Below are positions 51,660-54,311 of a DNA stretch of 64,000 bases, one piece after another. Every line of letters begins with the position of its first letter. Position 1 is the first letter of the stretch. The notes under the pieces are model-generated. The model saw only the letters and a program-made list of their open reading frames with translations. It did no database searches and was not told where the DNA came from. Origin of the DNA: Terriglobia bacterium. Lineage in GTDB: Bacteria > Acidobacteriota > Terriglobia > Terriglobales > Acidobacteriaceae. Position numbers and translations under genes: made by a program. The stretch is from assembly GCA_020073495.1 (NCBI GenBank), contig JAIQFD010000006.1, forward strand, positions 124,001 through 188,000, written 5' to 3'.

Positions 51660-51758
51660 TGGCGGAAGCGTGTGCGGGTCGAACGCACCCGCGACGGGAC
51701 GAACCCGCCGCGCGCCGGTTTTGAAGACCGGGAGGATCACCGGACCCCATTCGCTTCC
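51660..51758 (-). tRNA. selC: tRNA-Sec (anticodon TCA)
   Basis: A 99-base tRNA on the minus strand shows all selenocysteine-type features. The acceptor begins GGAAGCGA and ends ACGCTTCC-G-CCA, 8 bases long, though the eighth pair is A opposite A. The D stem is long (6 bp, GGGGTC/GATCCT) with a tetraloop. The anticodon stem CCGGT/ACCGG encloses CTTCAAA, giving anticodon UCA at 51724-51722. The variable arm is long (about 9 bp with a TTCG-type loop). The T arm is GTGCG/CGCAC with a TTCGACC loop, and CCA is encoded. The organism therefore probably makes selenoproteins; selA/selB/selD are not in the window. It sits between a peroxiredoxin gene and a TPR gene. Confidence 0.92.
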
Positions 51759-51784
51759 GCGTAAACTGAGTGTAACAAGAGAGC

Positions 51785-51810
51785 GGGAGCGCCGTAGCGG
51801 CGGCGCTCCC
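51785..51810 (-). terminator. hairpin after the peroxiredoxin gene
   Basis: A 10-bp GC-rich perfect stem GGGAGCGCCG/CGGCGCTCCC (51785-51794 with 51801-51810) lies just past the peroxiredoxin stop. The T-tract on the minus strand is weak. It separates the gene from selC. Confidence 0.65.
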
Positions 51811-51818
51811 GGTAAAGC

Positions 51819-52511
51819 TCAGGCGGTCTTTTTCGCGGCGACGGCGGAGAGCTTCTTCTTGGTGAAGTACCAATCCTTGACGTCGTGGCCTTCCTGACCG
51901 GCGGCGCGTTTCTCGGCGTCGATCTGGGTGATGGGCGCGGGCACGATGACGGGATCGCCGGGCCGCCAGTTGGCGGGGGTGGCGACGCCGTTGGCGTCGG
52001 CGGTCTGCAGCGCCTCGAACACGCGCAGCAGTTCGTCGATGTTCCGCCCCAGCGACAGCGGATAGTACAGCAGCGCGCGGATCACGCCCTTGGGGTCGAT
52101 GAAGAACACCGCGCGCACCGTGGCCGTGTCGCTGACCGCTTCGTGCACCATGCCGAAGGCCCTGGCCACTTTCTGATCGAGGTCGGCGATGACCGGGAAC
52201 TTCACCTTCACGCCGAATTTCTCCTCGATGTTGCGCACCCAGGCGATGTGCGCGTACACGCTATCCACCGAATTGCCGATGAGCTGCACGTTGTGCTTTT
52301 CGAAATCCTCGTGGCGGCGGGCGAATTCCACGAACTCGGTGGTGCACACCGGGGTGAAATCGGCGGGATGGGAGAACAGCAGTACCCACTTCCCCTTGGC
52401 GAAGTAGTCGCTCAGCTTGATGACGCCGTGCGTGCTCTTGGCCTCGATCAGGGGCGCGGGCTCGTTGATGCGGGGGATCCGAGCCGGTGTGGTGGTCGTC
52501 TCCGTGCTCAT
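51819..52511 (-). CDS. 1-Cys peroxiredoxin (Prx6 type)
   Basis: The 230-residue thiol peroxidase reduces peroxides. The peroxidatic Cys is in HPADFTPVCTTEF (C56), and no second Cys occurs in the sequence, so it is a 1-Cys enzyme needing an external thiol. The C-terminal extension with DANGVATPANWRPGDPVIVPAPI is the Prx6 hallmark. The start at 52511 has a strong purine-rich site (GAGGAGGAAGAG). It is preceded by a promoter, a Cys-rich leader peptide frame and an attenuator-like hairpin. Confidence 0.95.
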   Translation of the reverse strand: MSTETTTTPARIPRINEPAPLIEAKSTHGVIKLSDYFAKGKWVLLFSHPADFTPVCTTEFVEFARRHEDFEKHNVQLIGNSVDSVYAHIAWVRNIEEKFGVKVKFPVIADLDQKVARAFGMVHEAVSDTATVRAVFFIDPKGVIRALLYYPLSLGRNIDELLRVFEALQTADANGVATPANWRPGDPVIVPAPITQIDAEKRAAGQEGHDVKDWYFTKKKLSAVAAKKTA

Positions 52512-52569
52512 AGTCTCTTCCTCCTCTTCGGTACTCTTGATGTATGCGGCGGTCCGGCGGGAGGATTCA

Positions 52570-52616
52570 AAATCTAAAAAAGTAAAACCCACCCGCTGCT
52601 ACCCCCGGGTGGGTTT
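52570..52616 (-). terminator. attenuator-like terminator in the peroxiredoxin leader
   Basis: On the minus strand an 11-bp perfect stem AAACCCACCCG/CGGGTGGGTTT (52616-52606 with 52595-52585) is followed by TACTTTTTTAG, the form of an intrinsic terminator. It lies about 60-100 bases before the peroxiredoxin start and 20 bases after the leader-peptide stop. GTGGGT at the end of the leader frame could pair with ACCCAC in the stem's first arm and block its formation. Confidence 0.7.
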
Positions 52617-52635
52617 CCGGAACCCTTCTATGGCC

Positions 52636-52692
52636 CTACCCACACCCCGGCGCCGAGGTACAACAACCGGCGCAGGTGCGGCGGATGGCCAT
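52636..52692 (-). CDS. Cys-rich leader peptide (18 aa) upstream of peroxiredoxin
   Basis: The frame reads MAIRRTCAGCCTSAPGCG then TAG: 4 of 18 residues are Cys, including a Cys-Cys pair. The ATG lies 10 bases after a promoter -10 box, so the transcript would be nearly leaderless. The stop is 20 bases before a terminator hairpin. This is the layout of an amino-acid-responsive attenuation leader, here for cysteine. A flanking pair TATGGCC/GGCCATA may close the leader as an alternative structure. No homologue is known to me. Confidence 0.55.
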   Translation of the reverse strand: MAIRRTCAGCCTSAPGCG

Positions 52693-52702
52693 AAAGCCGG
52701 GT

Positions 52703-52731
52703 AGCATACCCGCATCGGGGCAGGGTGTCAA
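52703..52731 (-). promoter_or_regulatory. sigma70-type promoter of the leader peptide-peroxiredoxin unit
   Basis: TTGACA (52731-52726), a 17-base spacer and TATGCT (52708-52703) on the minus strand: one of the best promoter matches in the window. Confidence 0.75.
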
Positions 52732-52751
52732 AAGCTGAAAACCCCATTCTT

Positions 52752-52932
52752 ACCGCAGAGAACGCGGAGAACGCAGAGCAATTCAGAATGAGGATCTCAG
52801 CTTGAGGATTCCCCGTGGTTGGTCCCTTCCCTCCGCTCTGGGCAGGTAAAGAACGGTCGTCGGCCAGGCAGCAGTTGTCCGGATTTTGGACCATGTCCAA
52901 ATTCTCTGCGTTCTCTGCGTGCTCTGCGGTTA
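52752..52932. repeat. inverted nine-base micro-repeats (GCAGAGAAC type)
   Basis: A cluster of CAGAGAACG/CGGAGAACG units (about 52752-52777) faces its reverse complement TCTGCGTTC/TCTGCGTGC (about 52898-52927), with about 120 bases between. They lie between the divergent peroxiredoxin leader and phzF. Confidence 0.65.
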
Positions 52933-52942
52933 AATTAATCGC

Positions 52943-53869
52943 ATGCACGACAAAGAACGCCGGCGTTATCCCTTCATCCATCTGGACGTGTTCACCAGGC
53001 ACGCGCTGGAGGGCAACCAGCTCTGCGTCTTCCCCGACGCCAGCGGCCTCTCCGACGAAGAGATGCAGGCCCTGGCGCGCGAGACCAACCTCTCGGAAAC
53101 CACCTACGTGCTGCCGCGGGACGTGGAGACGGAGCGGGCGAAAGGCATCCGGGTGCGCATCTTCACCACCCAGGAGGAGCTGCCCTTCGCCGGACATCCC
53201 ACGCTGGGGACGGCCTTCGCGCTGCACGGCGAGGACCGCCGCCAGTCCGACACCTTCCGCACGCGCTCCAGCACCAACCTGATCGAGCTGGACCTGAACG
53301 TGGGCAAGATCCCGGTGGAGTTCAATTTCCAGGACGGACACCTGTTCGGCGAGATGCTCCAGCGCGATCCCCAGTTCGGCCAGACCCACCACGCCGAGGA
53401 CGTGGCGCGCGCCATCGGCCTCAACCTGCGCGACTTCGACTCCAGCCTGCCCATCCAGACGGTCTCCACCGGCAACGCCTTCGCCATGGTGCCGCTGCGC
53501 TCTCTGCAAGCCATCCGCCACCTCAGCTTCGCCTACAAGTCGGCGGCCGAGTACTGCGCCAAAACGGACGCCAAGTTCCTGTACTTCGTCACCCGCGAGG
53601 TGGAGGACAAATCGGCCCGCCTGCATGCGCGCATGATCTTCTACAACGGGGAGGACCCGGCGACGGGCTCGGCCGCCGGACCCTGTATCGCCTGGATGGT
53701 GCGCCACGGGGTGGCCCAGAGCGACGAGCGCTGCCTCATCGAACAGGGACTGGAGATCAAGCGCCGCAGCCACATGTACGTGCGCGCCACGCGCACGGGC
53801 GACCGCGTCAGCAACGTCCGCGTGGGCGGGAACGTGGTCGAGGTGATGAGGGGAGAGGTCAGCTTCTAG
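52943..53869 (+). CDS. PhzF-family isomerase/epimerase-like protein
   Basis: The 308-residue protein has the two-domain diaminopimelate-epimerase fold of PhzF. FIHLDVFTRHALEGNQLCVFPDASGLSDEEMQALARETNLSETTYV carries the catalytic Glu (E52). TTQEELPFAGHPTLGTAFAL, the FYNGEDPATGSAAGPCIAWMV loop and the end VGGNVVEVMRGEVSF are also characteristic. Function in the non-phenazine branch is unknown. Its stop codon is inside a heptamer array, and its last 25 codons are duplicated at 60282-60370. Confidence 0.93.
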   Translation: MHDKERRRYPFIHLDVFTRHALEGNQLCVFPDASGLSDEEMQALARETNLSETTYVLPRDVETERAKGIRVRIFTTQEELPFAGHPTLGTAFALHGEDRRQSDTFRTRSSTNLIELDLNVGKIPVEFNFQDGHLFGEMLQRDPQFGQTHHAEDVARAIGLNLRDFDSSLPIQTVSTGNAFAMVPLRSLQAIRHLSFAYKSAAEYCAKTDAKFLYFVTREVEDKSARLHARMIFYNGEDPATGSAAGPCIAWMVRHGVAQSDERCLIEQGLEIKRRSHMYVRATRTGDRVSNVRVGGNVVEVMRGEVSF

Positions 53870-53909
53870 CTTCTAGCTTCTAGCTTCTAGCCACTAGCTG
53901 CTAGCTACT
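53861..53909. repeat. heptamer array, seven AGCTTCT-type units, containing the phzF stop
   Basis: Four AGCTTCT units, then AGCCACT, AGCTGCT and AGCTACT. The phzF TAG (53867-53869) spans the first junction. CTAG at each early junction gives stop triplets on both strands. Confidence 0.85.
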
Positions 53910-53945
53910 GCTCTCCTGTATGGGACAGCCGCCCCGGCTGTTGTG

Positions 53946-54081
53946 GAGGTAGTGCGGCGCTTCAGCGCCGCGTTCCCGACGCGAAAGAAAAATTGGCTTT
54001 AGCCACCGAGGGACCTCAGCGGCTAAAGCCGTCCGATTCTGGGGCTGCGACAACGCGGGCCTGAAAGGCCCGCTCTACCTC
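53946..54081. mobile_element. MITE-like palindromic element, copy 1
   Basis: A 136-bp element with terminal inverted repeats GAGGTAGTGCGG/CCGCTCTACCTC (one mismatch). It holds three internal palindromes: GCGGCGC/GCGCCGC, GGCTTTAGCC/GGCTAAAGCC and GCGGGCC/GGCCCGC. GTTGTG occurs on both sides (53940-53945 and 54082-54087) as a possible target duplication. It differs from copy 2 at only about two positions. Confidence 0.75.
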
Positions 54082-54175
54082 GTTGTGTGGGACAGCCGCC
54101 CCGGCTGTCCTGGACTTCCTCGCCGCGGATGGACGCGAACGATTGCGGCTGAAGAGAGACGCCGTCAGGGTCGAG

Positions 54176-54311
54176 GAGGTAGTGCGGCGCTTCAGCGCCG
54201 CGTTCCTGACGCGAAAGAAAAATTGGCTTTAGCCACCGAGGGACCTCAGCGGCTAAAGCCGTCCGATTCTGGGGCTGCGACAACGCGGGCCTGAAAGGCC
54301 CGCACTACCTC
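54176..54311. mobile_element. MITE-like palindromic element, copy 2
   Basis: Same element, with perfect 12-bp terminal inverted repeats. It is in direct orientation to copy 1, about 94 bases away. The intervening 54088-54175 includes a second ACAGCC...GGCTGT hairpin. A GGGTGCCC-type hairpin repeat follows at 54336-54365. Confidence 0.75.

Follow-up and report, generated by a model that had tools for sequence, protein, structure and literature searches.

The classical leader-peptide attenuators are those of trp, his, ilv, and leu (PMC2965389; PMC8079986). Upstream reading frames containing cysteine codons have been described in other bacteria. The uORFC-8-2 motif is found before cysS in Rhodobacterales, with 145 examples, in which the cysteines usually occupy codons 14–15 (PMC8632094). 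The leaderless poly-Cys short open reading frames (ORFs) of mycobacteria are cysteine-responsive and act through translation attenuation (Canestrari 2020, according to PMC9094748 and PMC13236596), and no conserved terminator hairpins were found in the mycobacterial cys leaders discussed by Seliverstov 2005 (PMC1262725). The PBC-28-3 motif, located upstream of ahpC-like peroxiredoxin genes, has a long stem and a conserved loop beside the start codon, and was proposed to act on translation (PMC8632094). Here we describe a Cys-rich leader ahead of a peroxiredoxin gene in a 64,000-nucleotide (nt) stretch of Terriglobia bacterium DNA (contig JAIQFD010000006.1, positions 124,001 to 188,000; hereafter the window, to which all coordinates refer). 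Based on its sequence and comparison with relatives, the element is probably a ribosome-mediated, cysteine-specific transcription attenuator, a reading to which we assign a probability of roughly 0.84.

The element and its gene are encoded on the minus strand. The sigma70-like promoter TTGACA-17-TATGCT (52703..52731; −35 at 52731–52726, −10 at 52708–52703) has a fit of 10/12 and is the sole such site within 52000–53000 (shuffle mean 0.2), with a predicted transcript start near 52696. The leader ORF MAIRRTCAGCCTSAPGCG (52636..52692, stop TAG at 52638–52636) has 18 codons, with Cys at positions 7, 10, 11, and 17, and thus forms a short frame rich in one codon close to a promoter (4 Cys in 18 codons). 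Its ATG at 52692 is located 10 nt past the −10 box and approximately 4 nt past the predicted transcript start, and, judged by this distance, the leader is predicted to be translated from a leaderless message. The promoter, the 10-base gap, and the 18-codon frame with four Cys including a pair had been named in the original prediction, made by a model from the DNA letters, and all of them were found. An intrinsic terminator, identified from sequence and folding (52585..52616), is placed between the leader and the gene. Its stem, AAACCCACCCG paired with CGGGTGGGTTT (52616–52606 with 52595–52585), is a perfect helix of 11 base pairs (bp) with a 10-nt loop, followed by TACTTTTTT, with the U-rich tail UACUUUUUU at 52576..52584. 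The predicted 11-bp hairpin with a T-tract was thereby confirmed, and its distance from the leader stop was measured as 19 nt. A simple terminator scan, which accepts loops of 3–8 nt, listed none here.

Two further segments would constitute the switch. Region 2, GCCGGGGUGUGGGU (52638..52651), comprises the end of the leader frame and the first base of the stop codon, and is the 5′ side of the putative antiterminator. Region 3, ACCCACCCGG (52605..52614), is common to the 5′ arm of the terminator and the antiterminator. The complementarity of GTGGGT and ACCCAC pointed out previously corresponds to pairing of GUGGGU (52643–52638) with ACCCAC (52614–52609), and extends as CCGG (52650–52647) with CCGG (52608–52605), so that GCCGG-GGU-GUGGGU at the frame end forms ten pairs with region 3 around a 3-nt bulge. 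An antiterminator reaching from the frame end to the 5′ arm of the terminator can therefore be drawn for the window, where its single-locus test is marginal. The leader RNA has a minimum free energy of −77.1 kcal/mol (z −2.27), and 5 of 200 shuffles were equally stable. Downstream, an AGGAGG Shine-Dalgarno sequence (52520..52525) precedes the gene for a one-cysteine peroxiredoxin of 230 amino acids (51819..52511; ATG at 52511, stop at 51819). The protein is above the cut-off of NCBIfam PRK13189, contains the Pfam domains PF00578 (AhpC-TSA) and PF10417 (1-cysPrx_C), and has a single Cys, within PVCTTE, all of which bears out its earlier assignment as a 1-Cys peroxiredoxin. Among 20 loci scanned with Rfam, no leader reached a gathering score, and NCBIfam scans of the leader peptides gave nothing above a cut-off. 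The rnk_pseudo leader (RF01772) scored 30.4 bits against a gathering score of 55 and was judged a chance match.

We propose that the polymerase would start near 52696 and that the leader would be translated at once, its start codon lying almost at the 5′ end of the transcript. When Cys-tRNA is plentiful, the ribosome would reach the stop codon and cover region 2, the nascent RNA would fold into the 11-bp terminator, and the peroxiredoxin transcript would end early. When Cys-tRNA is scarce, the ribosome would pause at Cys 7, 10, or 11, and region 2 would remain free to pair with ACCCACCCGG; the resulting antiterminator would enable read-through into the peroxiredoxin gene and, in many relatives, into a tRNA-Cys or tRNA-Sec gene as well. 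Without translation, region 2 of the window would fold back onto the leader and the terminator would form. The site of transcription initiation, the translation of the leader, ribosome stalling, termination, and the reaction to cysteine are deduced from sequence. The stalling mechanism, which had been suggested before, is supported comparatively rather than experimentally, by leaders with adjacent Cys codons, sulfur targets, matches between codons and pathways, and class-specific pairing.

The element recurs widely in the family. The covariance model R1 was constructed from 22 aligned leader-to-terminator segments of peroxiredoxin loci, including that of the window, so its E-value at the window is circular, and R1 E-values are in general rough. 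R1 matched 144 of 200 family genomes, representing 63 of 79 genera (E ≤ 0.01), as well as 165 of the 399 genomes searched in the class and 44 of the 396 in the phylum (E ≤ 0.001). These counts are lower bounds, as loci L029, L319–L321, L323, L324, and L333 were missed by R1 or scored below the matches listed. The 96 strongest family matches listed extend down to an E-value of 5.6e-7; 90 were fetched and 6 were already known as peroxiredoxin loci. Adjacent Cys codons are present in the leaders of all 90 fetched matches and of five of the six known loci, the sixth (L013) having two separate Cys, which makes 95 of 96, a proportion that is partly built in because R1 carries a Cys-codon signal and the most Cys-rich frame was chosen at each locus. 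The leaders contain from 2 to 10 Cys, the spacing of which varies freely; examples ahead of peroxiredoxins are a leader with MCCCVPAPVCG (L156) and MRGYSMRGTRCCSTWVPVRGC (L255). A promoter with a fit of at least 9/12 was found ahead of 15 of 26 leaders, a count made without a shuffle control, and in 10 of the 26 it is predicted to sit 6–11 nt from the start codon; both counts include the window. The leader of L014 has an SD-like GGAG.

The genes behind the 90 fetched leaders are mostly related to peroxide or sulfur. There are 71 peroxiredoxins, which belong to two sequence groups, 10 members of one protein cluster (the one tested is nitrite/sulfite-reductase-like, below cut-offs), two cysteine-synthase-like and two CysD-like genes (one of the latter tested, above the cut-off), and single cases of siroheme synthase, a ThiS-like protein, an NMT1-like transporter protein, an FAD/NAD oxidoreductase, and tRNA-Cys; cysS was not recognised among them. 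Among weaker family matches and in other classes, Cys leaders precede genes for phosphoadenylyl-sulfate reductase (cysH; eight loci, with proteins of family f31, one of which was tested and is above the cut-off), cysteine synthase, sulfite-reductase-like proteins, and uroporphyrinogen-III methyltransferase (cobA/cysG). The codon therefore fits the function of the genes for the element as a class, while peroxiredoxin itself is not a cysteine synthesis gene. Cys leaders were additionally seen before YeiH-like putative sulfate exporters (L299, L302, L307; L299 was tested and is below the NCBIfam cut-off). They also stand before two large genes, that of L300 encoding outer-membrane beta-barrel and CarboxypepD_reg domains and that of L303 reading alike; the products are perhaps transporters for sulfur compounds.

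The choice of targets bears on the natural signal. Oxidants could drain cysteine, lower Cys-tRNA, and thereby induce the peroxiredoxin through the same Cys attenuation, a variant compatible with cysteine-specific attenuation in which the signal is oxidative. The predominance of peroxiredoxin in the family (71 of 90) and the presence of the poly-Cys leader at four of four peroxiredoxin loci in the second family of the order fit this variant. However, the 20 R1 matches sampled across four further families of the class, whose genes were named by reading the sequence without a family search, include no peroxiredoxin among the 19 that could be read. They precede nine sulfite-reductase-like, four rhodanese-like, three TauE-like, two CysD-like, and one DAHP-synthase-like gene, that is, sulfur genes and one aromatic gene, and therefore the wider signal is more likely to be sulfur supply; we regard an oxidative signal as possible but rather unlikely. 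The remaining match, L336, is on a contig too short to read and has a leader similar to those of the peroxiredoxin loci. At L355, in another family of the class, a Cys leader precedes a rhodanese-like gene, and a tRNA-Cys gene is located further downstream on the same strand.

Leaders built on other codons are, in our reading of the sequences, the best argument that the codons act as the sensor, because codon and pathway match. R1 also recovered Trp leaders before trpE (L291, L292, L295, and L296; L292 and L295 tested), a Thr-rich leader before thrB (L306), a Leu/Ile leader before a leuA-like gene (L294), and, at L354, an aromatic leader ahead of the DAHP-synthase-like gene. In the genome of the window itself, the Ile/Val/Leu leader MSHVGQNTVGVLLLIGVSVVLLITPVLAGRT with a terminator lies 20 nt before ilvD (L187; G000:C2:37574-37715, outside the window); it is the only leader recognised among the 18 weak own-genome R1 matches read, and its sequence marks it as a putative branched-chain amino acid attenuator with an architecture like that of the Cys leaders. 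Attenuators based on leader peptides may be a general feature of Acidobacteriota. These leaders also bear on the proposal that the nascent Cys-rich peptide, rather than Cys-tRNA, is the sensor and arrests the ribosome in response to a metal or an oxidant. An upstream frame in Bordetella is reportedly Cys-dependent in its response to copper. Four Cys within 18 residues ahead of a peroxide enzyme would suit such a sensor, as would the precedent of a reported copper-responsive upstream frame (PMC9426467). A peptide sensor does not, however, account for the free variation in the number and spacing of Cys, for the like architecture built on Trp, Thr, Leu, or Ile/Val codons that fit their pathways, or for the many targets that are cysteine or sulfur genes, and we consider it improbable.

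Relatives were also collected through the peroxiredoxin. A protein search recovered it from 45 of 200 family genomes (E ≤ 1e-60) and 40 of 399 class genomes (E ≤ 1e-70), and 44 of the 45 family loci could be used for upstream reading, L031 being dropped because too little upstream DNA was available. A strict poly-Cys frame, defined as a short upstream frame with CCC, or CC plus at least four Cys, is present in 20 of the 44 loci, with L137 a possible chance case. By comparison, such a frame occurs at 2 of 67 loci outside the phylum and on the reverse strand of 2 of the 44 loci. Among the 32 loci at ≥64% identity, 19 have a strict leader, and the number rises to 23 when the weaker leaders of L006 and L013 (three and two Cys) and those of L021 and L028, which are ahead of another peroxiredoxin gene just upstream, are included. 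The remaining nine (L005, L011, L018, L019, L020, L024, L027, L135, L139) have no leader within 0.6–1.5 kb upstream, so carriage of the peroxiredoxin gene does not require the element. The retention of the gene by leaderless relatives, named beforehand as grounds for rejecting the attenuator, thus applies to a minority of the close loci. These nine would be expected if the hairpin were no more than a plain terminator or spacer, with a Cys frame that arose by chance; the frequency of poly-Cys frames in the family relative to other phyla, together with the adjacent Cys codons in all the fetched matches and targets that are mostly peroxiredoxin or sulfur genes, makes chance scarcely credible.

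The two alternative helices were compared across leaders. Over 30 aligned peroxiredoxin leaders, 89.4% of the antiterminator cells and 97.1% of the terminator cells are paired. Across target classes, region 2 and the terminator arm vary together; in some sulfite-reductase loci, L231 for example, TCTGGCG stands at the end of the leader and CGCCAGA in the terminator. With at most 25 loci per class, the mean pairing energy was best with the arms of the same class in seven of eight classes, the exception being cysD (n = 2). Compared with shuffled sequences, region 2 gave a mean z of −1.61 over 135 loci, the combined value being inflated by the relatedness of the sequences. The parts of the element, their recurrence before cysteine and sulfur genes, and a complementarity that changes with target class can thus be read directly in the genomes.

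Folding was also evaluated at the decision point, assuming a ribosome stalled at Cys codons. Under this condition, 0.73 of the arm is taken up by the antiterminator in 91 peroxiredoxin loci, compared with 0.46 for shuffled segments, and 88 of the 91 exceed their shuffles. In the window, stalling with Cys 7, 10, or 11 in the A site gave antiterminator occupancies of 0.63, 0.65, and 0.48, respectively. Once the A site holds Cys 17 or the stop codon, the occupancy is 0, as the ribosome then masks region 2. When the window RNA is untranslated, region 2 folds back onto the leader and the terminator forms; in these models, silence without translation is therefore a property of the window and not general in the class.

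Several of the results weigh against attenuation by cysteine, beginning with the Cys-codon signal within R1, the nine leaderless close relatives, and the masking of region 2 at Cys 17 and the stop codon. The leaderless congener L005, whose peroxiredoxin is 89% identical, has no R1 match of any kind. Two of 20 weaker R1 matches (L298 and L301) have no recognisable leader. Within the genome of the window, the cysteine-synthase homologues that were read have no Cys leader, and a sulfite-reductase query found nothing. The duplex of the window, taken alone, barely exceeds shuffled sequences (fraction 0.062), and in the subgroup comprising L008, L015–L017, L022, and L023, region 2 is no better than shuffles (0.14–0.59). 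Among the 30 peroxiredoxin leaders, neither the antiterminator nor the terminator has covariation beyond that of shuffles, since the arms hardly vary in this class, and RNAalifold on seven leaders detected no pair changed on both sides; of the support that had been sought in an alignment of relatives, the recurrence of the Cys codons was found and covariation of the stems within the class was not. For the peroxiredoxin class, 35% of the arms from other classes pair equally well or better, in a comparison of arms that differ in length. Without translation, the class-wide antiterminator pairing at the decision point is still 0.42. Once the window RNA is complete, the terminator is the favoured fold whatever the position of the ribosome (0.98–1.00), and therefore the switch would have to be kinetic. 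Kinetic choice is usual in classical attenuators, and whole-leader equilibrium folding does not on its own demonstrate a switch.

The transcription unit often appears to extend beyond the peroxiredoxin. The loci were scanned for tRNAs with Rfam and ARAGORN. Of the 71 leader–peroxiredoxin loci, 34 are followed by tRNA-Cys and seven, including the window, by tRNA-Sec, on the same strand and 19–300 nt downstream. The link from thiol supply to peroxide defence in the original prediction is thus incomplete, as the tRNA genes carried by these 41 loci had not been mentioned. No tRNA was found within the stretch read in the other 30 loci, two of which were cut short; in L207 and L228, which belong to these 30, a second peroxiredoxin follows and then tRNA-Sec or tRNA-Cys. 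In the window, tRNA-Sec (anticodon TCA, minus strand, 51660..51758) is located 60 nt after the peroxiredoxin stop and may be the final gene in the unit. The gap contains an 11-bp hairpin with the weak U tail CTCTCTTGTT (51784..51811, minus strand), a possible terminator or processing site. The genome of the window also contains selB.

The association was also approached from the tRNA-Cys genes of the family. A search at E ≤ 1e-6 left 121 of 200 genomes without a match, so divergent tRNA-Cys genes were missed, and 70 of the 79 genomes with a match have one only. Of 89 listed matches, 69 were used; the 20 weakest were dropped, none of which, by eye, is downstream of a listed R1 match. An attenuator is located upstream of 51 of the 69, in 50 genomes, on the same strand and within 3 kb, and for six of them at 44–75 nt. 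After 20 further stretches had been read, a direct arrangement of leader, terminator, and tRNA-Cys was recognised in nine genomes (L245, L314–L318, L323, L324, and L333). At L333, the leader is of the sulfite-reductase type, and at L245, the tRNA-Cys gene stands between the leader and a dehydrogenase gene. No promoter match above 6/12 is present between the terminator and tRNA-Cys in these nine loci.

Where tRNA-Cys belongs to the unit, the switch would replenish the very tRNA it reads. We lean towards the view that an attenuator reading charged tRNA-Cys controls the tRNA-Cys gene itself in a self-correcting manner, often with the peroxiredoxin aboard, and that the tRNA-Sec unit of the window would couple selenocysteine decoding to cysteine. 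It could be argued instead that the downstream tRNA is unrelated to the switch and has its own promoter, and that in the window the hairpin in the gap ends the transcript after the peroxiredoxin. That hairpin, the 30 loci without a tRNA, and the tRNA-Sec that also follows the leaderless peroxiredoxin of L005 speak for such independence. Opposed to it are the consistent strand and short distance of the 41 tRNAs and the composition of the 40 peroxiredoxin-to-tRNA gaps of up to 190 nt, of which just three, that of the window included, have a terminator-like hairpin and none has a sigma70-like promoter of at least 9/12. The direct placement of the attenuator before tRNA-Cys in nine genomes, with the weak promoter matches noted above, is likewise unfavourable to independent tRNA genes, which we consider a doubtful explanation. 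For self-correcting control of tRNA-Cys, the genome of the window provides no example, its own tRNA-Cys gene being approximately 16 kb away beside tRNA-Gly, without an R1 match or any convincing Cys leader over the preceding kilobase. A query with the tRNA-Cys of L158 had no match in this genome even though tRNA-Cys is present there, and is uninformative. Control of tRNA-Sec in the window, as read from its sequence, is the weakest part of the interpretation.

Upstream of the element, a gene for a PhzF-family isomerase (52943–53869, plus strand) is divergent from the peroxiredoxin gene. Visual inspection showed a CTCTGCGTTCTCTGCG-type repeat in inverted copies at 52745–52785 and 52903–52935, on either side of the stretch that precedes the promoter, and a similar repeat is located upstream of the peroxiredoxin gene of L005. 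Past the PhzF-family gene, short tandem TAGCTTC units and repeated GTAGTGCGGCGCTTCAGCGCCG copies were seen, also by eye, at 53865–54200.

Acidobacteriota are a major soil phylum. The element suggests a testable function for unexplained attenuators in this phylum and outlines a cysteine regulon from genome data alone. Peroxide defence would be tied to cysteine supply, which predicts when the peroxiredoxin is made. To our knowledge, how bacteria match the supply of a single tRNA to demand is poorly understood, and an attenuator on a tRNA gene, if true, would show how a cell may do so.

The proposed attenuator resembles each of the described systems in part. With uORFC-8-2 it shares tandem Cys codons, an intrinsic terminator with a U run, and a proposed read-through upon shortage of aminoacylated tRNA-Cys; unlike that motif, which in its published description precedes only cysS in an alphaproteobacterial order (PMC8632094), it is found in Acidobacteriota before many genes, including peroxiredoxin and tRNA genes. 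As in the mycobacterial leaders, a poly-Cys frame is located upstream, leaderless there and predicted to be so here, and the control described for mycobacteria is a cysteine-responsive control of cysteine genes; in contrast to their translation attenuation, as cited, an intrinsic terminator follows the leader here. PBC-28-3 is likewise a cis-element ahead of a peroxiredoxin, whereas the Cys frame found here is not mentioned in its description. Among the matches listed in a search of open-licence literature, none described leader-peptide attenuation of a peroxiredoxin–tRNA unit or of a tRNA gene. Regulatory codons, competing hairpins, and an intrinsic terminator are common to the classical attenuators and the element described here, the targets of which differ in including peroxiredoxin and tRNA genes. 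Cys attenuators are already known elsewhere; the peroxiredoxin–tRNA and tRNA targets are what is unusual here.

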